From contig JAQUPG010000004.1 in assembly GCA_028716725.1 (NCBI GenBank), positions 66,680 to 103,580 on the forward strand: a stretch of 36,901 nucleotides of DNA, written 5' to 3'. This stretch comes from Patescibacteria group bacterium (lineage in GTDB: Bacteria; Patescibacteriota; Patescibacteriia; Patescibacteriales; JAQTRU01). This document shows positions 1,942 through 35,366 of the stretch, in pieces; position 1 is the stretch's first letter, and the number at the start of each line of letters is the position of its first letter. Under the pieces are notes generated by a model that was given only the letters and a program-made list of their open reading frames with translations, was not told the origin of the DNA and did not search any database. A program made the translations under genes and the position numbers.

Positions 1942-1974
1942 AGTCAATTGTTAATTGTTAATAGTTAATTGTCA
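1942..1974. repeat. Heptad array (GTTAATT/GTCAATT type) downstream of AI-2E gene, overlapping its stop codon
   Basis: gtcaatt gttaatt gttaata gttaatt gtca; inverted relative to array 1501-1547. Confidence 0.85.
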
Positions 1975-3045
1975 TTTCTCCAGCGCTTCTCCGTATTCCA
2001 GCTCGTAAATATGGAAAACCGTGATGGCAATGGAAATTATCAACGGCCCTAAAAATACGCCCCAGAAGCCGAATAAAGAAATCCCGCCCAGAATGGATAA
2101 AATTATAAAAATCGGATGGACCTGGGCCTTGCCTCTGATAACATAAGCCCGGATAAGGTTGTCAATCACGCTAATCACCAAAACGCCCCAAGCCAGAAGA
2201 AAAACTCCCTGCCAGATTTTACCGACAAAAAGAAGATAGATTGCTACCGGAAACCAGATAAAACCGGCACCGATATAAGGAAGGAGAGAAAAAAACCCCA
2301 TAAGCAAACCGGCGAAAAAGGCCGGCAAACCGACAATCATAAATCCGATTGCGCCGGCCGCTCCCTGGGCAATCGCCACCACGAAAGTTGAAATCATGGT
2401 TGAATAACTTACATCGCGGAATTTCTTAAATATTTCCCGGTCATATTTATTGGAAAGGGGCGTCCAATACATTATTTTGTCCATCATCCTGCTGCCGTCC
2501 ACAAAAAAGAAAAACATGGTAAAAACGATTATAATCAGGGAGATAATAAAACTGGTTGTCCCCTTAACTAAAGTCGCCGCTCCGCTTACCAGCCAATTGC
2601 TGGACTTCTTGGCCATGTCAGCGACAAAAACTTTTAAGCTATCGCTGCTTAAGCCCAATAAATTAGCTTTTTCCAAAATACTGTTTCTTATGGTTCCGTC
2701 CAAATTAGTCCTGTTTAAAAAATTAATCGTATCCGAGTAAGCCAGAACCGACCTTTGCGCCGTGTAAATAATTAAATTTATGGCCGGAATAATTACAATG
2801 AGGATCACCAGCAAACACATGACAAGCGAAGCTAGATTCCGGTGGTTGCGGAATTTTTTAACCAGCCATTCATAAGGGGTGTAAAAAATTGAAACCAGGA
2901 TAGCGGCCGCCAGGATTTCCACCAAAAATGGCCGGAAGACCAGATAGCAGGCAAAAATAACAAAAATAATCAGAATAATTAAAAAAACTTTGGAGATAAC
3001 GTTTTTATTCACCCCGTTAGAAATTTTTTTATCTTCTTTCTCCAT
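1972..3045 (-). CDS. AI-2E family transporter (PF01594-like membrane protein)
   Basis: 357 aa polytopic protein with AI-2E-type C-terminal pattern (GLPAFFAGLLMGFFSLLPYIGAGFIWFPVAIYLL...GLGPLIISI-like). The N-terminal ISNGVN is encoded by a repeat arm, so the start (ATG 3045 or GTG about 3010) is uncertain. Confidence 0.88.
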   Translation of the reverse strand: MEKEDKKISNGVNKNVISKVFLIILIIFVIFACYLVFRPFLVEILAAAILVSIFYTPYEWLVKKFRNHRNLASLVMCLLVILIVIIPAINLIIYTAQRSVLAYSDTINFLNRTNLDGTIRNSILEKANLLGLSSDSLKVFVADMAKKSSNWLVSGAATLVKGTTSFIISLIIIVFTMFFFFVDGSRMMDKIMYWTPLSNKYDREIFKKFRDVSYSTMISTFVVAIAQGAAGAIGFMIVGLPAFFAGLLMGFFSLLPYIGAGFIWFPVAIYLLFVGKIWQGVFLLAWGVLVISVIDNLIRAYVIRGKAQVHPIFIILSILGGISLFGFWGVFLGPLIISIAITVFHIYELEYGEALEK

Positions 3046-3115
3046 AATAATATACTATTTAATTTTTTAATATTTTGTATTTCCCCATTATTTCTAGTAA
3101 TATTTCTAACGGGGT
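3011..3115. mobile_element. MITE-like palindromic element (copy 1), TIRs ACCCCGTTAGAAAT...ATTTCTAACGGGGT
   Basis: Half-sites at 3012-3024 and 3102-3114 in inverted orientation; internal ctccataataatat...tttaatttttt shared with the element at 33796-33899. Confidence 0.7.
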
Positions 3116-3810: not shown

Positions 3811-4713
3811 TTATTTCTGGCATTTATCACAAAACCTTGTTCCCCGCCCCGCTACCTTTGACTTTTTGATCGCGGCCCCGCATCGCTTACACTTATCCCC
3901 TTCCCGATGGTAAACTTTCAGCATTCTGGTAAAATTGCCTTTTTGGCCGGCTGCATCCACATAATTGCTAAAAGTGGTGCCGCGGTATTTTATGGCCTTT
4001 TTCAGCAAATTATTGATGGCCTTGAAAAGCGCCCTTTTTTCCTTATCTGCCAGACTCCCGGCTCGCCTGCTAGGCCTTATTCTGGCCTCAAAAAGGGCTT
4101 CATCGGCGTAAATATTGCCAATTCCGGCAATTAGGCCCTGATTCAGTAAAACCGCCTTAACAGGGGCATTTTTGCCCTCCAAAACCTTTTTAAAAGCCGC
4201 CAAAGTAAATCCTTTTGTCAGGGGCTCAATGCCATACTCTCCTTTTATCTTTTTCAGCTCTTCCTCGCCAACAATCTTAGCATACCCGAATTTGCGCAAA
4301 TCATTAAAAAATAATTTTGCCCTATTGGCAAAAGAAAAAATCAGATGGGTGTGTTTGCCCGGCAGCGCCCCCGTTTCATTTCCTTCTTCCCCTGTTTCAT
4401 GGCCGCCGGCCACTATTTCCCCTCCTTTACAATAAATCAGCTGGCCGGTCATCTTCAGATGGATTAGCAAAAAATTTTTTTTATCAGCCAGTTCAAAAAT
4501 TAACAGCTTGCCAATCCGGTCCAGGCCGGAAAAAGAATTGCCCTTTAAAATCTTAATAAAATCAGCCGGCTTATTTCTTACCCCGTTTAGAGATTTATCT
4601 CTAATGGGGTTTATCACCTTCTGGCTTCTTATTTCAACCCCGGTTATTTTTTTACCTAAAATCCTTTTTTTTAAATCATTTTTAATTGTTTCCACTTCCG
4701 GCAGTTCCGGCAT
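3811..4713 (-). CDS. mutM: Formamidopyrimidine-DNA glycosylase (Fpg)
   Basis: MPELPEVETIKNDL N-terminus, RIGKLLIF, GIGNIYADEALFEARIRP, C-terminal zinc finger CKRCGAAIKKSKVAGRGTRFCDKC. Confidence 0.96.
   Translation of the reverse strand: MPELPEVETIKNDLKKRILGKKITGVEIRSQKVINPIRDKSLNGVRNKPADFIKILKGNSFSGLDRIGKLLIFELADKKNFLLIHLKMTGQLIYCKGGEIVAGGHETGEEGNETGALPGKHTHLIFSFANRAKLFFNDLRKFGYAKIVGEEELKKIKGEYGIEPLTKGFTLAAFKKVLEGKNAPVKAVLLNQGLIAGIGNIYADEALFEARIRPSRRAGSLADKEKRALFKAINNLLKKAIKYRGTTFSNYVDAAGQKGNFTRMLKVYHREGDKCKRCGAAIKKSKVAGRGTRFCDKCQK
4580..4609. mobile_element. Short palindromic element inserted in frame within mutM
   Basis: ACCCCGTTTAGAGAT-TT-ATCTCTAATGGGGT; encodes most of NPIRDKSLNGVRN in MutM. 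Confidence 0.75.
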
Positions 4714-4845: not shown

Positions 4846-4883
4846 ACAATACTGCGGAGCAGGCTGAGCTAAGAATTGCTTGC

Positions 4884-4916
4884 CCGCCAAATCCGCCAGC
4901 TGGCGGAGACGGCGGG
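4884..4916. repeat. Nested palindrome cccgcc-aaa-TCCGCCAGCTGGCGGA-gac-ggcggg
   Basis: 16-bp perfect palindrome core with outer CCCGCC/GGCGGG arms; related core at 18860-18875. Confidence 0.75.
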
Positions 4917-5053: not shown

Positions 5054-8000
5054 TTAATACTTCGCTAGCGTCTCATCGCTTACATCATAAATCTTTTTCC
5101 CCAAATAATTCTTCCTCAATTCTTCCAAGCTTCTGATATGCTGTTTCTGGCCATTCTTTATCACATAGATTTTGCCGTCCGCTCCCCTGATTAAAGCGCC
5201 GTCAGCCAGAACCTTTGTCCCCAAGACTTCCGGATACTGGATTAAGATTGTATTCTCCACGTCATAAATTTTTTGTCCGGCGTATTTAGCCAGTTCTTTC
5301 AGGTTGGCAATATATTTTTTCTGGCCGTTCTCTATAACAAATATTTTTTTGTCTTTGCCTCGCACTAACGTCCCGTCAGCATAGATTTTTTCACCCAAAA
5401 CCTGCGGGGCTGGCTTTCCGGGAACGGCAGGTGTAGCCGGAGTAGCAGGAACAGCCGGAGAAACCTTGGGAATAGCCGGGGTAGCCGGCTTGGCCGGTTG
5501 TGGCTGCTGCAGCATCCAAAAAGGCGGACCGCCAATGCTGGTAGAAGGAGCAGCCGTAATGCTGAAAGCCTTAGCATTGCTGGCTAAACCATCGGAGTTA
5601 GTCACAACTATATTATAACTGCCAACCCTGATTGAGGGCACGGCAACGGAAATGCTGGTCGTGGTTAAAGAAGAGACAGAGGCTGATGTCGCGCCGAATT
5701 TAACGGTTGCGCTTGTGCTGAAATTTGTACCGGTTATTGTCACGGTTTCTCCAGCCTTCGCGGATGAAGGGGAAACGGAAGTAATGGAAGGATTAACACC
5801 GGCCACGTAGCTGGACATGTGGTCTAAGAGCAAGCCAATCGTATAAGTATAAACGCCGCCGTTATTAACGGTATTTAAGACTGTCCCGCCTTTAGCATAG
5901 GTTATTCCATCTTTCATTCCGTCTTTGCCCGCGATTTCAAAAGTACCATCCGTTTTATAGTACCAAATTAACGGCGCTGTGGTGTTAGTGCTTTCTAAAG
6001 TAACCGTGGTCACGAAATCATTGCTGAAAGTAATTTTTTCATCCGGGTTTCCCATGGTAATAACAATCGCGTCATTACCGGCTTTTTCTTTCATTTCTTC
6101 GGTTGTCTTAACTATCTGCGGCGGGTTGATATTGCCGGTATAGGCCGTGGTGCCGTCAGCTTTTGTAATTTTCGTGGCCGGCGGAATAACTACTTCAATT
6201 GTGGCGACTGTATCGGTGTTAACAATCGTCTCGTCAGACTGCAAAGTTATTTGCACCGGAATAACATTGGTTGTGCTTAAATTAAGCGGCTGATTAGTGG
6301 TCTTGTCTTGTGTTAAGCCAGAGTCTATAGCCACTGGCTCTTTAACATTCAATTTCACAGAACTGATAGCATTAGTACCGCCAACTGTAGTTACTTTAAT
6401 GTTGTAAGTACCGGCTGAAATCGTGCCTAGAATAGTAGCAACAATTTTTGTACTGCTTATTGAAGTGACGGTCAAAGTAGTTTCTGGAGCTGTATCAATA
6501 CTAACTGCAGTCGCTCCGGTGAAATTGTTTCCGTATATAGTTAAACTGATACCAAAATCATTAGAGCCGATATTGGCAGGAATCAAATCACTGACAGTCG
6601 GTAAAGGTGTAGGGGCAACTTTTACTGTATAGGCGGAAGACAAAGCCGCGGAAGCGCCGTTGCCGTTAATAACTTTTAAGCTATAAACGCCTTCCGGAGC
6701 GCCAATCGGCACAGAAGCCGTTAACTGAGTTGCACTATTAACAGTCGCCGCTAATTCAAAAGTATTACTGGAATTAGAGAATCTTAAGGTAGTCGTGCCG
6801 TTATCAAAATTCTTTCCGGTGACTATAATAGCAACCGCTACATTATTTACACCTTCGGTTTTATCAATTGAGCTTATAGTCGGCAGTTTATCCGCAGTAG
6901 TCCGGTTCGTGATGCTACTGTTACCTAAATCAGAAACTTTAGAAACTTTATCTACTGCTTTAATCGCAAAATAATAAGTTGTATTGGCAGACAAGCCGGT
7001 TACCGTAAAGGTTTCGGGAGAACCAGACGATTTAGGAGAAAGAGTATTAAACACTGTGATAGCCGCTTCAAAACTAGCATCATCAGTTATAGCGTTGGTT
7101 GAACGCTTAATAGTATACTTAGTAGCAATACCGTCATTGCCGTCATCACCGGTCGCGGTCCAGGTTAATTTTATCTGGCTGGTAGCCGGACTGCCGGCAG
7201 AAGCGGATAAATTAGTAATAGCGGCCGGTGGAGCACTATCAGAAGGCGTAGCGGTCGGAGCTAAAGTGGTGCCCGAGGTTGTGACAATATCAGAAACATT
7301 TCCCAAAGCATCTGTAACCTGAATGGCAAAATAATAAGTCGTGCCAGCCGTTAAATTTTTCGCTACATATCCCTGACTGCCGCTGGCTACTGTTGGCGCT
7401 CCGCCTAAAGTCATGGCCGCGTCAAAATTTTCCGCGGTTATAGGACTGGTTGAACGCTTAATAATATAATAACTGCCATTGCTTTCGCTATTCGTCCAGC
7501 TTAAGACCAAAGAACTAGCGGTGGCTGAACCAGCGGTTAAACTGGCCGGGGCTAAAGAAGTTGTATCAATCGCAAAACTGCCGGCGTCTGAAAATTCGCT
7601 GTCGCCCATGGAATTAGTCGCTTTCACCTGCCAGGTATAATTTCCGTCAGCCAAAGCGTCAGTCGGAGTAAAAGTCGTTAAATCAGTATCGCCCCCGACA
7701 ACCATTTCGCCAAACATAATTTCTACGGAATAATTTTTAACCTCGGGTTTTGCCGAAACAGCATTCCAGGATAAAGTCGGCTTATTATTCTTTGTCGGCG
7801 TGGTTAAGGAAATTAAAGTCGGTTTAGCCGGAACTTCCGAAGACGGACCGGTAGAAGTTACCCACCAAGGGGAATAATCAACTGCGTCGTAAACTAAAGT
7901 CGCAAAATCAGGATCTTCGCTACCCCACCAGTTATTTTCAGCATTAATCTCTGGTTTGATATCTGGTCCACCATCACCGTCATCGGCATTAATCGCTTTA

Positions 8001-11000
8001 TTAACGACAGAGAATTTATTCTCGCTAACGGTTGCGGATGCTGTACCTTTCTCGAAATTTATAGCTTGATTCAAACTATGGAAATTATTATTAGTAATTG
8101 TCGCTGTGGAATTATCAGTTGTAGCATAATATGATCCCACGATAATACCGCTATCACAATCATATATTTCATTATTGTGGATATTCGCTTGCGAAGCGCC
8201 ATTACCACCATAAGAGGTAACAAATATTCCAGGTGAATCCCAAGTTGGTGTTTCTCCAATAGTAAGCGCGTTATGTAGGATATTATCGTAAATTTCAGCT
8301 GTTGAACCGCCCCACAAATTTACCAAATTCTGTACTCGACTTGTACCATCAACATTGTCGCCAACAACCTCGTTGTCATAAACTTTTCCTTCGGAATTAA
8401 TAAACCTTATACCGCGCTTGTGGAATGAGGAGATGTCGTTATCGTGCATCAATACGTAGCTTCCGGCATCTGCCTCAATGCCATTGCCACTGTTTTTCCA
8501 AATATTCTTAACCATGGAATTCGAAATTTCTATTGGATTATCGGAAGTTCCGGAATTATTAACAAAAATTCCATAATCAAAACCGTTGTCTCCGACACTG
8601 TCTCCTCCGCCATTAATTTCTAAATTATCTATCAAAACGTCGTTCGCACAATTAATTTTTATAATGTAGCTAGTCGATGCCAATCCGGTAATAACCGGCT
8701 TGGTCTCGCCAACGCCTACTAATTTTAATGATTTTTCTATAAGTGGACTTTCATAATAGGTCCCGGCCGCGACATAAACGGTTCCGCCTGGCACAACAGC
8801 ATCAATACCGAGCGCAAGAGTAGCAAAGGGTTCATTAAAATCACCTTTAGCCTCATGCGCAGTCACTCCACCTACTGGATCCACAAAGACATGGCTTCTG
8901 TTTCCAAGTGCCATTGCGTCTGAATTGGTATCTCTGCGATCAACCACGTAAGCATTATTATTAGCAGTAGAAAGACCCAAAACACTTTGCTGATAGTCTG
9001 GGACATAAGTAGCGGAGTTCCAAACAATATCCCATTCATTATGTGTAGTTCCCCAAAAATTATTGCTCACAGTCCTATTATCAGCATCAGTTTGATTATT
9101 AGTATAATTCATTATTCCGCCCTTAGTGTCATAAATCACATTATTGCTAACGGTGGCAATATTGTTGTATTGGACAACCACACCATCGCGGGTGTTATAA
9201 ATCGTATTGCCAGTTATATTGATACCAACCGTGGTACCAGCGCCAACAGTGATAGCTACACCATTCCAAGTGCTCATTGCGCCCGATTGTGCGGGTACAT
9301 AAATTTTGTTGTTTGTGATTGCAATCCCCGACAAACTTGTACCGCTGGGAATGCGGATTAAGCTGTTAGCCAATTCAGTCCATGGAGTCGGTGAAGCAGC
9401 CATTGTGCGGAGCATATTGTGCGTAATTTCCAGATTCTGGATAGTAACATTGCTTGTGGTAATTTCAAAAACCGTAACATAATCTGCGGCCGTACCTTGC
9501 ACTTTAGCAACTCCAGACTCCGGGCCAGTAATAACGACAGCCTTATCAACAACTATCGGACTAGTCACATCATACGTCCCCTCTGCCACATTAACCGTGC
9601 CTCCAGCATCAACAGCGGCTATCGCCTCGGGAATAGTAGCAAATGCGTCATAGCCGAAAGTATGCGAATCAGCGTTTCCCTCGCTATAAGCAGAATCCAC
9701 ATAAACCTGGGTTAAAGTTTCAGAACTAGAGTTATTGCCATTCTCGTCTAAATAATAAGGTTCGAAATCAACCGTGCCATAAACCAAGCCGCTAATTGTC
9801 GCTTTCTTAACAGTCCCCCACCAGTTGTTTTTAGCATTAACTGTTCCTGATTGTGGAACCGCGGTTGTTCTGAATACGCCGCCAGTGCTGTTATTTTCAA
9901 TTTTATTATTATTTATAGTTGGATTTTCGTTGTATAAAACAACTCCATAGTCATTATTATGGATAGCATTATTTCCCTCTATCTTTGTTGAAACTCCAGC
10001 TTCTATATCTATACCAACATTGTTATCGTGAATATTATTGTTTAATATTTCTAAATCAGCTGTGATGTCCGTAATTAATATTCCTGCACCAGTCCAATTA
10101 ATGCTGCCCGGTTCAAGCCCTTCGCCATCATATCCATTTTCGGGAACATAATCTTCCCAAGAAAAACCGCTAATGTCATTATCCTTAATAGTGCCCGCAA
10201 TACCTAAATCTGGAGAATTTCCACCTACAAGATAACCGATTTGTATTCCGTTCGGCGCAAGACTATGATCGGTTGTAGAAATAATATTCCCCTCAATTTG
10301 AACGGAAGAGGCGGTATGAACAACAATACCTGCTTTGCCTAATTTGTTGATTGTATTATCTAAAATTTCGACAATCGCAGCGCTATTATCCACATAGACA
10401 CCAATTCCCTTGCTTCCCACTTCGGTATTTTGTATGGTGAACCCTGAAAGTGTAACTGTTCCATTTGCGGTTATTCTAACTAGTCCTGGATTGGTAAGTA
10501 CGGTATTTCCACCATCTATTATGGTGGTTGCATATCCAACGCCCTGTAGTGTTAATGGTTTATTAATAACAATCTGACTTTCACTATAAATACCCGCCGC
10601 CACATTAACTGTCCCGCCGGCTGGCGCTGAATCAATGCCTTCTTGAATTGTTAAATAAGGATTTGATTGCGAACCATCGCCGGTTGTGTCATTACCGATT
10701 GGTGAAACATAAATATTATTATCAACTTCAAACTGGGTAAAATGATCGGTAGTGAAAGTTAAAACCCCGGCGGCATAACTAATTATATTTAAATCTGGAT
10801 AGTTGGAGTCGTCTGACGGAATAACTGCTCCCTCATCATCTTTTACGATAAGGCCTGGGGCGCTAATAAAACCAAGAGCATCCAAGCCGTACATCTTAAT
10901 TTCCGCTCCGGCGCTTTTAAGCTGCGTAGCAGTTCGCGCATCAAACTTCATGCTTCCGGCAGAAGCGTCCATATATGTTTCCAAATTTTGGAGGAAAATG

Positions 11001-11677
11001 GCCGTGTCTGAATCGGTTAAGTTAAGAGCTGCATTAAATGTCACTCTTCCAAAATCCGTCTTTTCAAAATATAGCCCGGCCGCGGCTGAAGAATCTGGAA
11101 TATCTATCGTACCCCAATTTGTCGTAATATCAGCGGCGTTAATACCAGCTACAATAGTAGAAATTGCAGGAGCTCCATTAAACCAACCTTTGGTCGGAAC
11201 CTGATCGGTTTGCCAAGCGCCGGAAATATAAGCTCCAGATTTTCCAGAGCCAGGAGCAGAAAGATCCACTCCTTCCCCGCTACCATAACTGACACTATGA
11301 ATAGGATTATTGCCACTATCAAAAATCGTTATTGTTTCTATTGGGTCCGGAGTATTATTTAACCAAGCCGAGGAATTTTCAAAAACCACAATGCCTTTAG
11401 CTGGAATAGCGCTAAGCCCAGAAAGAGATTTGGTTGCCCCAGCAAAATCAGAAATTGTCCACCCCGTTAAATCAACTGCACTGTCAGTAGTATTCAATAG
11501 TTCCACCCATTCATTACTGCCTTCTGCCGGATCAGACACAAATTCATTAATTATAACTTGCGGTGCAGGATCAGCTTGGCCAACATTAACTCCTCCGAAA
11601 ATAAAAAAACCGCTTGCTAAAACAATCGCGGTTATAACTAAAAAAACTGCTCTCTTTTGGATAAGACTGTGTTTCAT
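5054..11677 (-). CDS. Giant secreted/surface protein A: lamin-tail-like domain, right-handed parallel beta-helix repeats, FN3-like and IPT/TIG domains, Pro/Ala linker, C-terminal 'ADGTLVRG..KIFVIENGQK' repeats
   Basis: Signal peptide MKHSLIQKRAVFLVITAIVLASGFFIF; VIINEFVSDPAEGSNEWVELLNT (LTD-like); repeated 'NPYLTIQEGIDSAPAGGTVNVAAGIYSES' beta-helix starts; TIG-like 'PSITSVSPSSAKAGETVTITGTNFS'. The track start 11695 is TTG; ATG 11677 is more plausible. Confidence 0.9.
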   Translation of the reverse strand: MKHSLIQKRAVFLVITAIVLASGFFIFGGVNVGQADPAPQVIINEFVSDPAEGSNEWVELLNTTDSAVDLTGWTISDFAGATKSLSGLSAIPAKGIVVFENSSAWLNNTPDPIETITIFDSGNNPIHSVSYGSGEGVDLSAPGSGKSGAYISGAWQTDQVPTKGWFNGAPAISTIVAGINAADITTNWGTIDIPDSSAAAGLYFEKTDFGRVTFNAALNLTDSDTAIFLQNLETYMDASAGSMKFDARTATQLKSAGAEIKMYGLDALGFISAPGLIVKDDEGAVIPSDDSNYPDLNIISYAAGVLTFTTDHFTQFEVDNNIYVSPIGNDTTGDGSQSNPYLTIQEGIDSAPAGGTVNVAAGIYSESQIVINKPLTLQGVGYATTIIDGGNTVLTNPGLVRITANGTVTLSGFTIQNTEVGSKGIGVYVDNSAAIVEILDNTINKLGKAGIVVHTASSVQIEGNIISTTDHSLAPNGIQIGYLVGGNSPDLGIAGTIKDNDISGFSWEDYVPENGYDGEGLEPGSINWTGAGILITDITADLEILNNNIHDNNVGIDIEAGVSTKIEGNNAIHNNDYGVVLYNENPTINNNKIENNSTGGVFRTTAVPQSGTVNAKNNWWGTVKKATISGLVYGTVDFEPYYLDENGNNSSSETLTQVYVDSAYSEGNADSHTFGYDAFATIPEAIAAVDAGGTVNVAEGTYDVTSPIVVDKAVVITGPESGVAKVQGTAADYVTVFEITTSNVTIQNLEITHNMLRTMAASPTPWTELANSLIRIPSGTSLSGIAITNNKIYVPAQSGAMSTWNGVAITVGAGTTVGINITGNTIYNTRDGVVVQYNNIATVSNNVIYDTKGGIMNYTNNQTDADNRTVSNNFWGTTHNEWDIVWNSATYVPDYQQSVLGLSTANNNAYVVDRRDTNSDAMALGNRSHVFVDPVGGVTAHEAKGDFNEPFATLALGIDAVVPGGTVYVAAGTYYESPLIEKSLKLVGVGETKPVITGLASTSYIIKINCANDVLIDNLEINGGGDSVGDNGFDYGIFVNNSGTSDNPIEISNSMVKNIWKNSGNGIEADAGSYVLMHDNDISSFHKRGIRFINSEGKVYDNEVVGDNVDGTSRVQNLVNLWGGSTAEIYDNILHNALTIGETPTWDSPGIFVTSYGGNGASQANIHNNEIYDCDSGIIVGSYYATTDNSTATITNNNFHSLNQAINFEKGTASATVSENKFSVVNKAINADDGDGGPDIKPEINAENNWWGSEDPDFATLVYDAVDYSPWWVTSTGPSSEVPAKPTLISLTTPTKNNKPTLSWNAVSAKPEVKNYSVEIMFGEMVVGGDTDLTTFTPTDALADGNYTWQVKATNSMGDSEFSDAGSFAIDTTSLAPASLTAGSATASSLVLSWTNSESNGSYYIIKRSTSPITAENFDAAMTLGGAPTVASGSQGYVAKNLTAGTTYYFAIQVTDALGNVSDIVTTSGTTLAPTATPSDSAPPAAITNLSASAGSPATSQIKLTWTATGDDGNDGIATKYTIKRSTNAITDDASFEAAITVFNTLSPKSSGSPETFTVTGLSANTTYYFAIKAVDKVSKVSDLGNSSITNRTTADKLPTISSIDKTEGVNNVAVAIIVTGKNFDNGTTTLRFSNSSNTFELAATVNSATQLTASVPIGAPEGVYSLKVINGNGASAALSSAYTVKVAPTPLPTVSDLIPANIGSNDFGISLTIYGNNFTGATAVSIDTAPETTLTVTSISSTKIVATILGTISAGTYNIKVTTVGGTNAISSVKLNVKEPVAIDSGLTQDKTTNQPLNLSTTNVIPVQITLQSDETIVNTDTVATIEVVIPPATKITKADGTTAYTGNINPPQIVKTTEEMKEKAGNDAIVITMGNPDEKITFSNDFVTTVTLESTNTTAPLIWYYKTDGTFEIAGKDGMKDGITYAKGGTVLNTVNNGGVYTYTIGLLLDHMSSYVAGVNPSITSVSPSSAKAGETVTITGTNFSTSATVKFGATSASVSSLTTTSISVAVPSIRVGSYNIVVTNSDGLASNAKAFSITAAPSTSIGGPPFWMLQQPQPAKPATPAIPKVSPAVPATPATPAVPGKPAPQVLGEKIYADGTLVRGKDKKIFVIENGQKKYIANLKELAKYAGQKIYDVENTILIQYPEVLGTKVLADGALIRGADGKIYVIKNGQKQHIRSLEELRKNYLGKKIYDVSDETLAKY
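5057..5389 (-). repeat. C-terminal tandem protein repeat (2 x about 55 aa) of giant protein A
   Basis: KIYADGTLVRGKDKKIFVIENGQKKYIANLKEL... and KVLADGALIRGADGKIYVIKNGQKQHIRSLEEL... Confidence 0.85.
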
Positions 11678-11696
11678 ATTTTTAGTAAAAGGCAAA

Positions 11697-11822
11697 CCCC
11701 ATTAGAAATTCCAGCAGAACATCAAACCCCGCCGGAATTATTTTAGAATCTAATCCCCCGATGCAGAGCAGCGGGGTATTATTTCTAACGGGGTAAAATA
11801 TTAAATTTGTCCCTAACGGGGT
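11697..11822. mobile_element. Compound palindromic element region upstream of giant protein A (half-sites 11697-11709, 11781-11793, 11812-11821)
   Basis: CCCCATTAGAAAT...ATTTCTAACGGGG...CCTAACGGGG. Confidence 0.65.
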
Positions 11823-11948
11823 AAAAATTTAAGCCTTTTTAATTTATAAATAAAAAATATATAAAAGCTTTTTTATTTAAGTATTTAAATATAACCACAA
11901 AAGGAAATTAAAGTCAAGATGAAAAAGTGCATAAAAGGTGCATAAAAA

Positions 11949-11978
11949 GGGCGGGATTTATTATGATAAATCCCGCCC
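11949..11978. terminator. Terminator downstream of giant surface protein B
   Basis: GGGCGGGATTTAT-TATG-ATAAATCCCGCCC, 13-bp perfect stem flanked by A/T runs. Confidence 0.85.
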
Positions 11979-12002
11979 TTTTAGTCAAACTATTTAAACC
12001 GC

Positions 12003-15000
12003 CTAATTATTACACGCGCAAACCCGCAAATAGTTAAATCCGTTTGGATCGTTATTCGGATTTGCCCCGCACTCTCCACCGCCGTTAGACGAGAAACAGA
12101 GATTATCTTTCGGCCGATAGGACGGAGAATTGCTGGCCGGATACTTCCAGCAGCTGCTGCAGCCAAAGAAATGGCTTACTATTGAGCAATCCGCGGGCTG
12201 GTTCGGCCAGGAACAATTCCCTCCGCTTACCCCGCCATGAGAAGCGCAAACGTCAGTACAGCTTTGCGTATAGCTTGTAGCCGCATACCAATTATACCCG
12301 TTGCTGCTCCAACCCTCTGTCTTTGGGGCAGGAGTAACGGTATGGCTTATGCAGGCAGTATCACAATAAGTGCAGGTTCCTCCGTAAGGGGCTGTGCAAG
12401 GTGTATCCGTATTAGCCGCGCCCTTATCGCATTGCTCCCCATTATCAATCGTGCCGTTGCCGCAATAACCTCCTCCGATCGTATGACTTTGGCAATTCGT
12501 ATCACAATAAGTGCAACTCCCTCCATAAAGAGCGGTACAGGGCGTATTGGTATTGGCGTTACCGCTATCGCATTGTTCCCAGCCATTAACTACGTTGTCT
12601 CCGCACTTGTCTCCTTCACTGCACCAATTATCCCCGACATACCAGTCTTTGCATTCGGTGGTCGGATAAACCATGGTTTTTCCCGGGAAGGAATACCAAT
12701 TCCCGCAACCGCCGGTATTATGGTACCCTTTTATAATCATGTAATTTTTGTAAGAAAATCCGTCTTGACCTGGATTAGCCGGGCCGCACTGCGCTCCCCA
12801 CCCATATAGACTGCATTTTCCGCCCGGGCAATTCTTTCGGCAGGCAGCCAGAGCGTTGTCTGACTTTTGGCAGGCTGGCCAAGGTTCCTGGCCAGACCCT
12901 TCTGGCTTTATGCACTTTCCAGTCGTGTAAAAGGTATCCGGGTCATTATATGTTTCGCAGCCATAGGTACATTCATCAACTACAAGAGAAGACGACACCG
13001 GAGTTATCATACACATATAACTGACACATACGCCCCTCACGTTCTTCAACTTGTTGCCATCGCACATATTTCTGGTATATTTACTACAATCATCGTCCGT
13101 TACACATTCCAATTTCTCTACACATTCTTTATAATTTTTTATTACGTCAATAACTTGCGATGAACCGCCAACACAGGTACAGGTACTGTCGCAAGTGCCG
13201 GGATTGCTTTGATAATTATAATAATCCGGCCCGTTGCATCTCCATCCGTTTCCCTCTCCTGCCGGACAAGGATTATTCGCATCGCAGGCTGATCCGCACT
13301 GGGAAGAATCGCAATTTAAAGAAGTTACGGCTACGCAAACATTGCCCGAGCAGGTCCCGGTAACTGTTTTTAATTTATTCCCCTGACAAACCGGGGCTTC
13401 ATCCAAATGAGAACACTCGCTGTTGGCCACGCACCCGGTAGTTGTAGTATAGGCAATAAATTCCGTGAAATGCTTTGTCCAGATGACCAAATCAGCTCCG
13501 GCATTTATATAGCAATCCCCTTCCGCCGCTAAAGCGTCGCCCGCGGCCTGGGTATCAGCGCTACAGATAGCCGTTATCGGCGTGAACACCCCGCCTCGGG
13601 CATAACCGGCTTTGCTTCCGGCCTCTCCCGGGATTAAAAGCCTTACCGCTTTATTAAAAGTTAATTTCACATTGGGAAAGCCAACTTCAACCACTTTCTT
13701 AACCTGGGTCTTTTTGCCCGGCTCTTTCGGGGGCTCAACCGAAGCCGTTACTTTAACTTCAGGGGCTCTTACAGTCCCGTCCCAGTTATTTTTGTCGCCT
13801 GTGACGGTAGTTCCCGAAGGCATAGCCACCACAATGCTGTCTCCCTGAATCGTGGTTTCTTCTTGCAAAGTAAGGGTTTTATTTTCCCCGGAAACGACAG
13901 TTTCTCCTTTTATGCTATCCATGCTTGAAGAAGTAAACCATGGGGAGAAGTCAACCAAACCAACAATCCAGGATTTTATGGTCTCAAAAATATCGCTTCC
14001 CCACCAGTTCTTTTCCGCCTTGACAGTAGAGGAAAAATCAGGATTATGGAATAGATTTCTATAGTTATCATGAACTTTATTATTCTCCACTACGACCCCC
14101 ACCGGGTCAATGTCTCCGGTGCCGAAATTACTACCGACCAAAATCGCGGAATTTTTGTAATTCCGACCGCCGGCATTCTTTTCCGTACCGAAAGAACCGC
14201 CCATGCCGGATATTTCATTATTCTTTATAAAGACATAATCCGACCAGGTCTGGATACCGTTAATTCCGCCCGCGACCGTATTGCCGGTTATAGTGGAATG
14301 TCCGGCTGATTTTCCGCCTTCATCCTGAATGTGAATTCCGGCATAATCCCAATCTCCGGTTCCGTCGGCCCCGTAATAATTACACCCGGTTAAAGTATTG
14401 CCGCTGATTTCCGTATAGGCCTGGCCGAGAACAACGATGCCTTGATATTTTGTAGAGGAAATCGTGTTATTGCTGATAACGCTTTTCTCATAGACGCTCA
14501 ATACGTCCGCCGGGTATAACTGGATGCCCGGTCCGCCGATATTATTGATAACATTGTCTTTTATGGTGTTGGTCTTTGTGTCCGAGAAAATTGCTTCAAA
14601 AGGAGCGCTGATGCCGGAAATTTGGTTGTTGCTAATCTCCGGTCCGGTGCCGCCCCAATAGTCAATGCCTTTGGCGCCGCTGCAGCCGGAAATAATGTTA
14701 TAGGTAATTTTAATGCCTGTGCCGGTATGATTAGTGGATTCAATCGGCTGCTGGTCAGTCACGCCCTTTACGTAGTTATGGGAAATAATTGCTCCGGAAT
14801 TTCCCTGGTTGGAAATGCCCTGCCATTCCGGATTGGCTACCGTATTATAGAGAACCTGGGCATTAGCCGAAGAACCGTCAATGTAAATGCCGTGCATGCT
14901 TGAACCCGAAATAATATTGTAACTCGCCTTAGCGTTGGCCGCGCCATGTATCCAGATTCTGTTGCCGTTAATCTTAAATCCGTTGAAAACAGAATTAGCG

Positions 15001-18000
15001 CCGGCAGACGTAAATTCAACCTGCCCGGTAATAATGGATTCGCCGCCTCTGTCCGCGCTCCCAGCCGGATCAATATCATGTTTAGCTCCCAATAAGGTAA
15101 TTTGCTTGTTAATGGTTATATTTTCACCATAAGTCCCGGCTCCGACATTAACCGTTTCTCCGGCGCTTACTCCGTTAACCGCGGCCTGAATGCTGGAAAA
15201 ATTACATCCGCTGGCGCAGACAGAATACGCGGCTGATAAGGTTGTCATAGCGGCATCCTTATAATAAGGAACATAATCAACATTACTGGAAACCAACCCG
15301 GCAATCACACCGCCGTCAGCCGTTCCCCACCAATTGCTTTCAGCATTAACGGCCGGCGCCGTGCTGTCTACTCCATGGTTTGTTATCCCTGTAAATTTAT
15401 TATTATGGGCGACAACACTGCTTGTATCGGCTCCGTCATAACCAACCGCCACCCCGTCAGTTGAATCTGAAATTGTATTTCCGGTTATCGTGGCCGCCGT
15501 GCCTGCCCCGTAATAAGTTGTAACTAAGATTCCGGCAGAAGTTGAGCCGTCAGAGCTGGCCACGCCCTTACAATTTGAAATTATATTATTTGAAATTGTC
15601 GCTTTTGCTCCTCCCCCGACTTCAACTCCATAATCCAGCCAATCACCCGTTCCTTTGCCGGTATAAGTATTTCCGCTGGCTACAGAATTCGTAGTGATGC
15701 CTGTGCCAAAATAAATAATGCCCAGTCTTTCTATATTGGAAAATCCACAATTAGTTACATCAACATCACCATCCCCCATAGCCGCGACGCCCATACCTAT
15801 ATATTTAGAATATTTGATGTTCTTTATAGCGCAATCTGAAACTGAACCGGAGCCGTTGTATCTTATGGCCTGATATATATTTTTCCCAGAACCATCCAAA
15901 GTGACTTTTTGCAAATTAAGCGTTTTCCCTGCATTAACAAGGAACCAGCCTCTTGCATCTCCGGAACTTCCCGTATTTGCTGAAGGATTAATTATGACGC
16001 TATTCTTATCAGCTCCGACGATATTTAAATTTTTGTTAATCACAATTTGCGGTCCTTCAGTATAGGTTCCGGCTGCGACATTAACGATTCCACCGGCCAC
16101 AGCGGCATCAACGCCCAGGGCAAAGGTAGCATAAGGTAAATTTATATTACCGTTAACCGGGCTGGCTGTGCCGGTCCCGGTGGCGGCATTCACGAAAACA
16201 TGGCTTCTATTGCCAGTTAAATTAGCGCAGGCAGTCGCATCAGCCGCGCGCCTGTCCACCACATAAGCGCCGTTATTAGACGAAGATAGGGCAAGAACGC
16301 TTTGTTGATAATCCGGAACATAATAGGCCGTATTCCAAACGATATCCCATTCATTATGGCTTATTAAACCGGAAACAGTTGAGGTCCAGGAATTGCCAGT
16401 CATAGTGCGGTTATTGGCATCAGCTTGAGTATTGGTATAATTCATGATTCCGCCCTTGGTATCAAAAATAGTGTTATTGCTTATGGTTGCTGTTACATTA
16501 TACCTTGTTATAATGCCGTTTCTGACCCCATATATTTTATTGCCGGTAATTGTGGCTGAACCTGTCTGAAGGGTTAGGCCTCTGGCGGTCCAGGTGGACA
16601 TTCCACCCAAAGAAGATTCATCCGCATAAATGGTATTTTGAGTAATTGTTGCATTCTGGGCATTAATAAGGATCAAAGCGCTATTTAATTCATCGCCGAT
16701 TATACTATAAGGAGATAAACTAGTTGTAATTTTCAATTTCTCCACGGTGGCATTATCCGCGGTTATATTAAATACTGGAGTATTTTCAACTGCGGAAACA
16801 ACCATCGCCGAGGCGTCGGAAGTTATAATTACGCTTTTATTTACGTTAATGGAACTATTTATCGTATAGGTCCCGGCACCAACGTTTATTATATCCCCAG
16901 CAGAAGCCGCATCAATTGCCGCCTGGATTGTCGTATAGCTACAACCGCTGTTGCAGACAGAAAGGCTTGAAGCGCTTGATTTATATAACGGAGTGCTGGC
17001 TGCGGAGCCGGAAGAACCGCCCGAAGACCCGCCAGAAGAACCTGCACCGCTCTGCCCATTGTATAAATTCCCGCTATTGGAATTGTTTCCCTGAAAATTA
17101 TTAACTGGAACCACCGTATTATTAATTTCGGCAGTTATGATATTGTTAGGAGCGCTATTATTTGTTTCATTATTATTATTCTCTTTAATGACATTAATAG
17201 TGACATTGGGGGTAATAATGCTGGTCGCGGTTGATGTGTCTACGCCCGATTCAAATGGCCCCTCTACCGTAACATATCTTATAGCCCCGTCTTGCGTATC
17301 ACTAAATTTAATACCATATAAGGGACCGGTCCCGGTGCTGACTAGAGTAAACCCCTGAAGAGTAACCCCCGGCGTAGTTACGGCAATACCGCTTTTTAAG
17401 CTACCGCCAGTTTCCCCGGAAACGTTAATCGTGACTCTATTTTCCCATTCTCCGCTAATAGTCAAACCGGATTTTGCGATCGTTAGAGTTTCATTATAGG
17501 TTCCGGCCGCCACTTTAATTTCGTCTCCCGGGGAAGCCGCGTCAATTGCCGCCTGGATACTCCCTAAATTACTCGGTACATACCATTTATTATCTACTAG
17601 ACTCTCTATATACCTGCCGTCAGTTATATGGCTTGGCTTGCCGGAAGAAAATGCCGCGGCTGCTTCTACTTCATTAAGCGTCTTATAGAACCAAATTCGG
17701 CTATAACTCGGCGCCTGGTCATCGTTGCCGCGTAAAGCATAGCCAAAATCGGCAGATTGGAGTAGAACATCAGGCGAACCGGAAACGCCGTAAGTTATAA
17801 GAAAAGGTGACCGGGAAGGATTTACATTGCTTTGCGAGAGGTATAATCCCCCGTTATTAGTTCCACTTTCTCCGAAGCTGTTAGCTCCGGAAAAAACAAC
17901 GCCTTTAATGGCGCCTGTCCAGGTTTGGATACGGACACCGCCTCCTGAATTTCCGCTGGTTGTAATATAGCTGACGGAAGAATTGCTAACATCCTGAAGG

Positions 18001-18551
18001 CCTAATCCATTTCCGCCGTTATTCTTGGCCGTAAGATGGAAAATGGTCATATTGATCCCACTCGCCATATCTACGCCGGAGCCAGAAAATCCCTGCACTG
18101 TCACATATCTTATTCTACCGCCAGTTGTATTATTAAATCTGATACCGTATCTGGGGCTAGCGGGCGAACTGGCCCCGTTGCTAATTAAAGTAAGCCCCTG
18201 AAGAGTAACTCCTGAAGCGGTTACGGCAATACCGCTTTCAGGGCTACCGCCGGTTTTTCCGGAAACGTTAATTATTACCTTATCTTCCCATTCTCCGCTA
18301 ATAGTCAAACCGGATTTATTAATAATCAGAGTTTCTTTATAGGTCCCGGCCGCAACCTTAATTTCGTCTCCCGGATAAGCGGCATCAATAGCGGCCTGAA
18401 TTGTCTTATAATTCTGGTCCGAACCGACATTTAATGTAACCGCCCGAGCAATGTCCGAAGGCACAAAAAAACCGCTTACTAAAATAATTGCGGTTACGAT
18501 TGAAAAAATTCTCCTTCCCTTGATTATAATATTCTTATTCTTACAGCCCAT
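12003..18551 (-). CDS. Giant secreted/surface protein B: parallel beta-helix repeats plus Cys-rich C-terminus with '[13 protein letters not shown]' (Myxococcus cysteine-rich/DUF4215-like) repeats
   Basis: Signal peptide [37 protein letters not shown]; repeated '[39 protein letters not shown]'; tandem [38 protein letters not shown] / [38 protein letters not shown]. Confidence 0.9.
   Translation of the reverse strand: [2182 protein letters not shown]
17265..17570 (-). repeat. Internal duplication within giant protein B (copy 2; copy 1 at about 18100-18410)
   Basis: [53 protein letters not shown] vs [53 protein letters not shown]; DNA also closely similar, about 840 bp offset. Confidence 0.85.
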
Positions 18552-18730
18552 ATTTTTGATATAAAAGTTAAGATATTAAATTTTCCCTAAAATTTAGAGA
18601 AAAAATCTAAACCTTTTAATTTAAAAATAAAAATATATAAATTTACATAAGAACATAACTTATGACTTAATTATAAACATCGGCTAAAAATTAGTCAAAT
18701 TAATAAAGTGGATAGGTTGTGCATAAAAAA

Positions 18731-18758
18731 GGCGAAATTTATTATAATAAATCCCGCC
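18731..18758. terminator. Terminator-like inverted repeat, homologous to 11949-11978
   Basis: GGCGAAATTTATTA/TAATAAATCCCGCC with flanking A/T runs. Confidence 0.7.
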
Positions 18759-18851
18759 TTTTATGTCAACGATTAGGTACAGCGGCGAATTAAGCACAAG
18801 AGCTTGTTCTAAAATTTTAGATTTCAGGTCGCCTCGTCTCGCCCCTCGCAG

Positions 18852-21714: not shown

Positions 21715-21779
21715 CCCCGTTAGAAACTCACCTCGTTGGAAATACATTTCTAATGGGATAAGACATGTTTCTAACGGGG
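21715..21779. mobile_element. Compound (nested) palindromic element, four half-sites
   Basis: CCCCGTTAGAAAC ... CCTCGTTGGAAAT ... ATTTCTAATGGGA ... GTTTCTAACGGGG. Confidence 0.7.
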
Positions 21780-22715: not shown

Positions 22716-22722
22716 ATTTTTA

Positions 22723-22757
22723 TGTTAATTGTTAAAAGTCAATTGTTAATTGTTATT
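22723..22757. repeat. Heptad array (GTTAATT), inverted relative to 22331-22367
   Basis: gttaatt gttaaaa gtcaatt gttaatt gttattt. Confidence 0.85.
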
Positions 22758-22762
22758 TCCTG

Positions 22763-22835
22763 AGCCGTTGCGCGGATTTGAACCGCGGACCTACTCCTTA
22801 CCATGGAGTTGCTCTACCAGCTGAGCTACAACGGC
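22763..22835 (-). tRNA. tRNA-Thr (anticodon GGT)
   Basis: GCCGTTG...CAACGGC acceptor; ACTCC-ATGGTAA-GGAGT anticodon arm; CGCGGTTCAAATCCGCG T-arm. Confidence 0.93.
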
Positions 22836-22842
22836 CTTCCTT

Positions 22843-22880
22843 AAATTGTTAATTGTTAAAAGTTAATTGTTAATTGTCAT
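22843..22880. repeat. Heptad array (GTTAATT)
   Basis: attgtt aattgtt aaaagtt aattgtt aattgtc. Confidence 0.8.
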
Positions 22881-28714: not shown

Positions 28715-29260
28715 TTATCTCTTTTTGCTTTTCTTTATTTTATTCACCTTCTGCATTTTAATCCTCTTCCTCACCCCGAAACTTCCCAAAACCGCATTTT
28801 CCAGTTTTATAAAATCCTTGACCGCCATTTCTATGGAATGGTTAAAGCCCCCGGAAGAAAAAACCGCTTTTTTTACTCTCGTCAAAGCTTTGTCCGCGAC
28901 TACCGGCAAATTATGGAGTTTGCCAAAAGCGCTCATTGTCCCGGATTTAATCTTTAAAACCTTGCTCATTACCTTCTCGCCCGGAATTTTCACCGTTTTT
29001 ATCTTTTTGCCGGTTTGCGCCCCCAAGCATTTGCCTAATTTTTTAAAATCCAAATTATAATCAGCCGGCAAAAGCACTAAAAAATAATCTCTGTCCGCCT
29101 GGACCAGAAGCGACTTGGCAATTTCGCCCATTTTTTTCTTCATGGTCGCGGCCGCATCCATGGCTGTATAAACTGTCCTATGCTCTAAAACATTATGCTT
29201 TACCCCGGCTTTATTTAGATATTCTTCTAACTTAGCCGGTAGCTTAGTTTTTTTACTCAT
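28715..29260 (-). CDS. YbaK/aminoacyl-tRNA editing (deacylase) domain protein
   Basis: VLEHRTVYTAMDAAATMKKKMGEIAKSLLVQADRDYFLVLLPAD; positively charged C-terminal tail. Confidence 0.8.
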   Translation of the reverse strand: MSKKTKLPAKLEEYLNKAGVKHNVLEHRTVYTAMDAAATMKKKMGEIAKSLLVQADRDYFLVLLPADYNLDFKKLGKCLGAQTGKKIKTVKIPGEKVMSKVLKIKSGTMSAFGKLHNLPVVADKALTRVKKAVFSSGGFNHSIEMAVKDFIKLENAVLGSFGVRKRIKMQKVNKIKKSKKR

Positions 29261-29264
29261 ATGT

Positions 29265-29300
29265 TTGTTAATTGTTAAAAGTTAATTGTTAACTGTTAAC
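29265..29300. repeat. Heptad array (GTTAATT)
   Basis: gttaatt gttaaaa gttaatt gttaact gttaaca. Confidence 0.85.
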
Positions 29301-33449: not shown

Positions 33450-33830
33450 TTATTTTTTATCTTTCTCTTCTTTCTCTCCTCCTTGCTCCTCTTCTAATTT
33501 TTCTATAAATTTTTCTACTGAATAATCGAAATCAGGAAAATCCAAAAACTTAACAATATCTTCGTAGCCATCGCTTCCTGCTAGAGCATGATACAAAACA
33601 CATTCGCGGACTCCCTCCATGCCGTACTTTTTTAATAAATCATTTTTAAAATGGCCCATTTTTTCACTAATAGCAATTTTTTCCTGGATGGTTATGCCTT
33701 CTCTATATAAAATTCGGTGCAATCTTTCCCTTAAAAGGGCGGCTTCCTTAAACCATCTTTCCTTTTCATTATCTGGTTTTTCAATTTTTTCGTTCACCCC
33801 GTTAGAAATTTCCTGTTTTTCTCTCTCCAT
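33450..33830 (-). CDS. Hypothetical protein, paralog of 33109-33438, with element-derived N-terminus
   Basis: MEREKQEISNGV-NEKIEKPDNEKE...; FPDFDYSVEKFIEKLEEEQ. The start could instead be the GTG at about 33796. Confidence 0.6.
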   Translation of the reverse strand: MEREKQEISNGVNEKIEKPDNEKERWFKEAALLRERLHRILYREGITIQEKIAISEKMGHFKNDLLKKYGMEGVRECVLYHALAGSDGYEDIVKFLDFPDFDYSVEKFIEKLEEEQGGEKEEKDKK

Positions 33831-33899
33831 AATAATATTGTTTATTTTTTAAATATTTTCCCTGTTAACCACACTTTAGAAAACTATTTCTAACGGGGT
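33796..33899. mobile_element. MITE-like palindromic element (copy 2)
   Basis: CCCCGTTAGAAAT 33797-33809 and ATTTCTAACGGGG 33886-33898; interior shared with 3011-3115. Confidence 0.7.
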
Positions 33900-33916: not shown

Positions 33917-33950
33917 ATTGTCAATTGTTAACTGTCAAATGTTAAAAGTT
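33917..33950. repeat. Heptad array (GTYAAYT) upstream-side neighbour of the element, next to the asnS stop
   Basis: gtcaatt gttaact gtcaaat gttaaaa gtta. Confidence 0.75.
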
Positions 33951-33953
33951 ATT

Positions 33954-35366
33954 TTAAAACTCCGCATTCTTCGGCGTGCGCGGGAAAGGAATAACGTCGC
34001 GGATATTGGCCATGCCCGTTAAATACATTATGGCTCTTTCAAATCCAAGCCCGAACCCGGCGTGCTTTACTCCGCCATATCTTCTTAAATCCAGATACCA
34101 CTCGTAATCCTCCCTGTTTAAACCAAAGTCTTTTATCCTTTTTTCCAAAACGTCCAGCCGCTCCTCCCTTTGGCTGCCGCCGATAATTTCCCCCACGCCC
34201 GGCACTAATAAATCCATGGCGGCCACGGTCTTAGCGTCGTCATTTAAGCGCATGTAAAAAGCCTTAATCTTTGCCGGATAATCCGTAACAAAAACCGGTT
34301 TATTGAATTCTTTTTCCGTCAGATAACGCTCATGTTCGGTCTGCAAATCAATCCCCCACTTAACCGGGTATTTAAATTTCTCTTTGGCGTTTTTTAAAAT
34401 CTCAATCGCCTTCGTATAAGTTAAGCGCTGGAAATCAGATTTTACGACATTATCCAGGCGCTTTTCCAGATCTTTATCAATGAATTTAGAAAAAAATTCC
34501 ATCTCGGCCGGGCAATTTTTCCTGACATAATCTATTAGATATTTTACCATCTCCTCCGCCAAATCCATATTATCCCCTAAATCAGCAAAAGCCATTTCCG
34601 GCTCTATCATCCAGAATTCGGCCGCATGGCGCGGCGTATTGGAGTTTTCCGCCCGGAAAGTCGGGCCAAAAGTATAAATCTTGCGGAAAGCCAGGGCAAA
34701 AGCTTCGCCATTAAGTTGCCCGCTTACCGTCAGGTTGGTTTTCTTCCCGAAAAAATCTTCTTCATAATTAATTTTCCCCTTTTCATTTTTCGGCGGCTTA
34801 TTCATATCAAGCGTGGTCACGGAAAACATCTCCCCGGCCCCTTCGCAGTCGCTACCGGTGATAATCGGGGAATGAAGATAAATAAATCCCCTTTCCTGAA
34901 AAAATTTATGGAGAGCGAAAGCCAGAACCGAACGCAGCCGGAAAACCGCGGAGAAAGTATTGGTCCTTGGCCGCAAATGGGCAACCGTGCGCAAAAATTC
35001 AAAAGAATGGTGCTTCTTCTGCAAAGGATAGCCTTCGGCAGTTAAACTGATGACTTCAATCTTATCCGCCCTTAATTCAAAGGCCTGCCCGGCCGCCGGC
35101 GATTTTATAAGCTCGCCCTCCGCCGTAATCGCCGAACCAATAGATAATTTTGTAAGCTCTTCAAAATTATTCAGCTTATCTCCGTAAACAACCTGCAAAT
35201 TATTCAAAAAAGTTCCGTCATTTAATTCAATGAAACCGACATTAGCGGACGACCGCCCGGTTCTTACCCAGCCGGAAACAGAAATTTTTTCCGCCTTAAT
35301 TGAAAAATGGCCGGATAAAAATTTCTCCGGTTCCTTATAAATTTGTTTTATCAAAACTTTTTGCAT
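33954..35366 (-). CDS. asnS: Asparaginyl-tRNA synthetase
   Basis: [53 protein letters not shown]-like class II core; [29 protein letters not shown]. Confidence 0.96.

Follow-up and report, generated by a model that had tools for sequence, protein, structure and literature searches.

The in-frame palindrome in mutM of this patescibacterial genome represents an inverted-repeat element, usually ~100 bp long, in its shortest form. With a probability of roughly two in three, we read it as a miniature, non-autonomous copy of a transposable family whose full-length form encodes a GIY-YIG nuclease, the presumed mover of the family. More broadly, we lean towards the view that these elements constitute a new class of transposon, ~0.28–0.31 kb in length, that uses a single-domain GIY-YIG nuclease as its transposase, spreads from one bacterial phylum to another and reshapes gene starts by inserting at ATGAA. 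Empty sites show that the elements have moved. We refer to the whole 36,901-nucleotide stretch analysed as the window, to its own genome (1.08 Mb) as G000, and to two congeners as G001 and G002.

A palindromic element inserted in mutM

The coding (minus) strand of mutM reads TAAA[CCCCATTAGAGATAAATCTCTAAACGGGG]TAAG (plus-strand flanks CTTA[..]TTTA), a near-perfect palindrome encoding the peptide NPIRDKSLNGVRN, as reported in the initial annotation (Table 1). Alignment of the three congeners reveals a clean empty site in G002, with the DNA sequence AAAGCGGTAAAGAG; the G002 MutM (80% identical) reads KKAV-KSRPVDF where that of G000 reads QKVI-NPIRDKSLNGV-RNKPADF. The net insertion comprises the 29-bp palindrome and one 4-bp flank copy, 33 nt or 11 aa in all, and is in frame. 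G001 carries a diverged filled copy of 36 nt (HPVRNRESSNGV), and the insert is absent from all 27 further MutM homologs aligned, which come from other families of the order. The extra MutM peptide is genuine and adds 11 residues net; the initial annotation recognized the segment and overestimated its size (12–14 aa). In a sequence alignment with the Fpg structure 1l1t, the insert lies after the second strand and before the next helix, opposite NIIRHPRDSEA-FAARMIG of 1l1t, and is predicted to form a surface loop. The two arms co-vary inside single copies (AGAGAT/ATCTCT in mutM; TCCC/GGGA).

The MutM of another genome (G035, locus L043) has a different in-frame insert, with the peptide GPCLPAGRD, probably encoded by a CTGCCGGCAGG-type palindrome (compare window positions 4880–4915), which suggests that these genomes contain further palindromic families.

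Table 1. Features of the window, in plus-strand coordinates
Feature	Position	Strand	Remarks
AI-2E family transporter gene; start and first ~12 codons from element	1972..3045	-	PF01594, E 3e-53
Start-codon (class A) element, 103 bp	3012..3114	-	Duplication TTCA/TTCA (coding strand TGAA); gives next gene ATG and MEKEDKKISNG
mutM (Fpg), 300 aa, insertion host gene	3811..4713	-	Matches Fpg structures, e.g. 1l1t, E 6e-48
Right-hand 4-bp target duplication copy, one substitution	4577..4580	.	TAAG on coding strand; G002 empty target GCGGTAAAGAG
Minimal 29-bp palindromic element in mutM	4581..4609	-	Empty in G002, filled in G000 and G001
Left-hand 4-bp target duplication copy	4610..4613	.	TAAA on coding strand
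Class B element, intergenic, 97 bp	11697..11793	.	Flanks CAAA/TAAA
Extra solitary half-site, 2 mismatches	11809..11822	-
65-bp element; second, diverged palindrome inside (about 21731–21758)	21715..21779	.	Flanks CAAA/TCAA (TCAAA on both sides, one-base offset)
Small tagged gene, 126 aa, no Pfam match	33450..33830	-
Start-codon (class A) element, 102 bp	33797..33898	-	Duplication TTCA/TTCA; supplies MEREKQEISNG

Elsewhere in the window, two very long ORFs (5054–11695 and 12003–18551; 2213 and 2182 aa) have many internal repeats in common, and near-identical terminator-like hairpins lie beside them (11946–11982 and 18726–18762). Repeats of 7 bp, of the TTAACAATTAAC type, occur at several gene boundaries (1922–1975, 22717–22880, 29246–29299 and 33919–33954).

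The ~100-bp form and its distribution

The ends of the element form an inverted repeat, CCCCGTTAGAAAT...ATTTCTAACGGGG. Exact copies of the half-site ACCCCRTTAGAAAT number 60 in G000, 62 in G001 and 15 in G002, against none for the reversed control pattern in those genomes, a frequency far above chance; the half-site is sporadic in other families of the order. Within the window it recurs at the four other loci first noted (the class A, class B and 65-bp elements of Table 1). Nearly all copies are inward-facing pairs of arms, that is, inverted terminal repeats, and at least 115 stretches in named genomes have pairs 58–88 bp apart. The short elements range from 29 to 130 bp, with length peaks at ~94–95 and 101–102 bp that also appear among unrelated genomes with unrelated spacers (L198–L277); spacers are related within genomes and unrelated between genomes. 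In being short, with inverted ends, a target duplication and many copies, these elements resemble MITEs, and we use that term for them.

The matches listed include many Patescibacteria groups together with Deltaproteobacteria/Syntrophaceae, Omnitrophota, Planctomycetota, Nitrospirae, Elusimicrobia and Stahlbacteria. The cross-phylum cases are MAGs, some of which may be mis-binned; others belong to long contigs, such as that of L268 (400 kb).

In two copies (L248, 5600–5706; L257, 766–861) the spacer between the arms reads by eye as a tRNA gene, as if captured. At G000 C9:22511 and C12:35977 (L089 and L094) a 33-bp short element is nested inside an older half-site (ATTTCTA[..]ACGGGGT); because both sites hold the same nested composite, the composite itself may have moved. 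A candidate 0.9-kb element (L261, 602–1536) was actually two palindromic copies around an ordinary gene.

REPINs, which are linked to RAYT genes (PMC3116915), are likewise dispersed inverted pairs of ~100 bp. This genome and its relatives do have Y1 transposase genes, yet movement of the elements by a RAYT, a Y1 HUH transposase, is improbable: a flanking pair occurs at none of 20 Y1 loci (the genome's one and 19 in relatives), one of which contains a lone half-site. In sequence the arms are simple inverted repeats that pair with one another, with no hairpin within an arm, and the element lacks RAYT linkage and has a 4-bp target duplication. HUH single-strand insertion is not known to make such a duplication.

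Target-site duplication and reading frame

An exact direct repeat of the flanking 4 bp is present in 97 of 208 copies, where shuffles predict 16.7. In the named set, 4-bp identity is found in 44 of 82 copies and a 5-bp repeat in none of the 82. The duplications are mostly TNNA (TAAA, TGAA, TCAA and their complements), and empty orthologous sites agree with a 4-bp duplication. The flanks TTCA[..]TAAA (or the complement), not a direct repeat, are seen in eight GIY-YIG units (see below) and 13 MITEs, and weigh against the GIY-YIG reading.

We counted a copy as intragenic when at least 30 residues precede the element and at least 100 follow it. Twelve of the 13 such copies have a length of 2 mod 3; copies without a long ORF are distributed 52/42/34 across the mod-3 classes. 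Together with a 4-bp duplication, a length of 2 mod 3 is the only class that keeps the reading frame; 12 of the 13 intragenic copies are in frame. Only two of the three reading frames stay open across the 3' arm, and ISNGV is the predominant one.

In-frame insertion of a palindrome into housekeeping genes recalls the Rickettsia palindromic elements (RPEs) with which the mutM palindrome had been compared, a group of ten families of ~150 bp with conserved peptides (PMC10969869). What survives of that comparison is a mobile palindrome, in frame and dispersed in the genome and its sisters. Neither the size nor the taxon of RPEs matches, and the 29–130-bp length, the TNNA duplication, the usual form of ~100 bp and the GIY-YIG full-length form set the family apart in size and structure from the described RPEs and from an RPE-like stand-alone palindrome. 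An RPE-like selfish palindrome propagating on its own or through gene conversion would account for the short in-frame copies in genes and for arms that co-vary copy by copy, but is very improbable in view of the target duplication, the ~100-bp and ~285-bp forms, the start-codon location and the GIY-YIG content.

Insertions at start codons

About 20 copies in G000 lie at gene 5' ends, typically with a left flank TATGAA and a right flank TGAA, from which it follows that the element split a native ATGAA. By a stricter rule, which demands 100 or more codons of ORF downstream of the element, the three congeners have 20 copies with the gene start inside the element. The element supplies ATTATTATGGAGAAAGAAAA.AAAAAATTTCTAACGGGG, giving MEKENKKISNG and then V (GTG) at the native Met position; the new ATG and ~12 codons are read in frame through the element 3' end (..ISNG-V), and the resulting N-terminal tag is "MEKENKKISNGV-". 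At ten start-codon sites the G002 ortholog is empty, with its native ATG exactly at the V codon and with conserved flanks on both sides (for example, G002 ATCTTTAAGGT/ATGAGAAAAGACTTGCC vs G000 ATCTTTAAGGTATGAA[..]TGAACAAAGATTTGCC). The site of the 103-bp element of the window is empty (ATGAA) in both G001 and G002, where the native starts are MNKNIISRIF and MNKNVISKIF. Tagged genes include adk (..ISNGVNIIIMGPQGSGKG) and a thioredoxin-reductase-like gene (..ISNGVYDTIIIGAGPAGM); in a MurG-like gene (..ISNGVKVLLTGGGTGGS) translation begins a few codons before the copy and continues through it. The start-codon arrangement recurs with unrelated spacers in 17 further copies in named genomes.

At three loci (L171, L128 and L196) a short element sits on the start codon of a GIY-YIG gene, producing N-termini of the type MNPVRN..ISNGVKEERNYYVYILASK.

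Full-length units encode a GIY-YIG nuclease

Full-length relatives of the element, 275–315 bp, contain a single ORF for a GIY-YIG nuclease of ~85–95 aa (PF01541, E 1e-15 to 1e-17) between ends of the same type. A de novo search that assumed no end sequence (inverted repeat with at least 11 matches plus an exact 4-bp direct repeat) detected such a structure around 10 of the 81 unique GIY-YIG loci and in none of 458 windows shifted within these loci; in one of the ten, L316, the repeat is long, GC-rich and of a different type. Elements of 275–315 bp with (C)CCC-type ends were tabulated at 29 of the 81 loci, the other 52 being without such ends, which counts against the GIY-YIG reading. The ends fall into several differing families (CCCCGTTAGA.., CCC(T/C)GT(T/G)AAATAA, CCCCGCACCTTTT, CCCCGCCC.. 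and.CCCAA.TTTTTGGAT), all of which enclose GIY-YIG and nothing else. In the reverse direction, a search for ends 240–270 bp apart, regardless of content, gave GIY-YIG units at 6 of the 10 places returned; the reversed pattern returned none. The idea that GIY-YIG genes are insertion targets only was dropped once units with both ends appeared. Mapped on the GIY-YIG protein tree, the end families are clustered, with 7 changes where shuffled data have 15.6 (0 of 200 shuffles as low). Part of this agreement is inherent, since in many units the protein C-terminus is encoded by the 3' end.

Two units in G000 have empty sites in G002. The C3 unit (G000:C3:80454-80732) is inserted in a start codon; its ORF takes the host ATG as its start, and the GGGA end together with TGAA restores an ATG for the host gene. 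The C4 unit, of the CCCCGCACC end family, has TTTTA on both sides. The GIY-YIG protein is under purifying selection (dN/dS 0.07 between the G000 and G001 copies), and the catalytic-type Y, Y, G, H and E columns are invariant across 28 GIY-YIG proteins. Patescibacteria of the Moran, Giovannoni, Harrison and Kazan types and a Syntrophaceae MAG have relatives at 66–73% identity, with visible ends. GIY-YIG relatives were present in all 30 MITE-bearing genomes searched, with up to 16 matches per genome; co-occurrence alone is weak evidence, since most genomes without the CCCCGTTAG MITE also have GIY-YIG genes (77/111 genomes of the order).

The two forms are connected through their ends: AAAACAGGTTGAAATATTATTATGAGCGAAGGAAATAACAAAATTTCTAACGGG, the GIY-YIG 3' end in G001, matches AAATAGATAAAATATTATTATGAAAGAAAAAAACAAAAAAATTTCTAACGGGG in a start-codon MITE (G000 C4:999), which uses the codons for YYYERRK-stop of the GIY-YIG gene in the +1 frame, giving M-S-E-... 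The 3' end of the 100-bp start-codon form is the 3' end of the GIY-YIG gene in the +1 frame, and from sequence these forms look like internal-deletion derivatives.

The elements might instead be ordinary MITEs moved by an unseen DDE transposase, with GIY-YIG genes as passengers or frequent targets. Perfect inverted repeats and a duplication of fixed length are typical of DDE elements, and piggyBac and IS1380, kilobase elements with a DDE transposase, have CCC..TAGAAA-like ends and a ~4-bp duplication, as here. Some GIY-YIG genes merely bear a MITE on the start codon, and we know of no GIY-YIG enzyme that acts as a transposase. Against this, a search of 2.46 Mb for ends 180–3500 bp apart with matching duplications yielded ordinary genes, nested MITEs and two GIY-YIG units only, and no longer element encoding another transposase, DDE or otherwise. 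Together with the exclusive GIY-YIG content of the differing end families and the GIY-YIG ORFs at 6 of 10 places found from the ends only, this makes a hidden DDE transposase unlikely.

Free-standing homing endonucleases spread by cutting and recombination in phage T4 and relatives (PMC2988022), and GIY-YIG homing endonucleases (T4 Seg type, group I intron) place a nuclease on a mobile unit, as here. With this precedent and the recurrent target ATGAA, the GIY-YIG protein could be imagined to cut empty targets into which the element is then copied by homologous recombination. We give this little credence: GIY-YIG homing is site-specific, whereas these targets are many, dispersed and unrelated, share only TNNA, which is far too short, and acquire 4-bp duplications around inverted ends.

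Proposed mechanism

We propose that the GIY-YIG protein binds the ends of the element, cuts them and integrates the element with a stagger of 4 nt, and that it would move the short forms in trans. On the simplest reading, internal deletion of a GIY-YIG unit would give the ~100-bp form and then the end-plus-end form in mutM. A full element at a start codon would use the host ATG to express its nuclease, with GGGA and TGAA giving the host gene a new ATG. Elements may persist because the gene comes to depend on the supplied start, so that loss of the element would cost the gene.

Relation to known systems and significance

Short MITE-like elements fused in frame with genes have been reported (PMC10969869). 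The present elements differ from MITEs in often lying on start codons and supplying the start, and in having an apparent autonomous partner of the GIY-YIG type in place of a DDE or HUH insertion sequence; the GIY-YIG elements share the MITE ends and 3' sequence and are presumably autonomous. By sequence their proteins belong with the small UPF0213/YazA-like GIY-YIG proteins (PF01541, E 2e-17), the best solved relative being 1zg2 (BH0048; E 4e-7), and differ in being mobile, enclosed by inverted repeats with a target duplication. The searchable, non-subscription literature yielded no description of a GIY-YIG transposon or of this element family, in keeping with the initial annotation, whose author knew of none for such genomes.

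A 2025 study lists GIY-YIG proteins among the genes inferred to have been donated by Patescibacteria to other bacteria (PMC12455944), and GIY-YIG insertions in CPR rRNA genes were judged not to be spread by homing (PMC11270868); both results fit the proposal of a GIY-YIG transposon. Uncultured bacteria contain many small free-standing GIY-YIG genes with a patchy distribution, and we found no described mechanism for the spread of these genes. If such genes are transposons, the patchy pattern would be explained, GIY-YIG would be added to the short list of known transposase chemistries, within an element of ~290 bp, and the units would be among the smallest autonomous transposons. The start-codon insertions mean that mobile DNA repeatedly rewrites the N-termini of housekeeping proteins (adenylate kinase and, by sequence, MurG-like and thioredoxin-reductase-like proteins), and they matter for the calling of gene starts in Patescibacteria.
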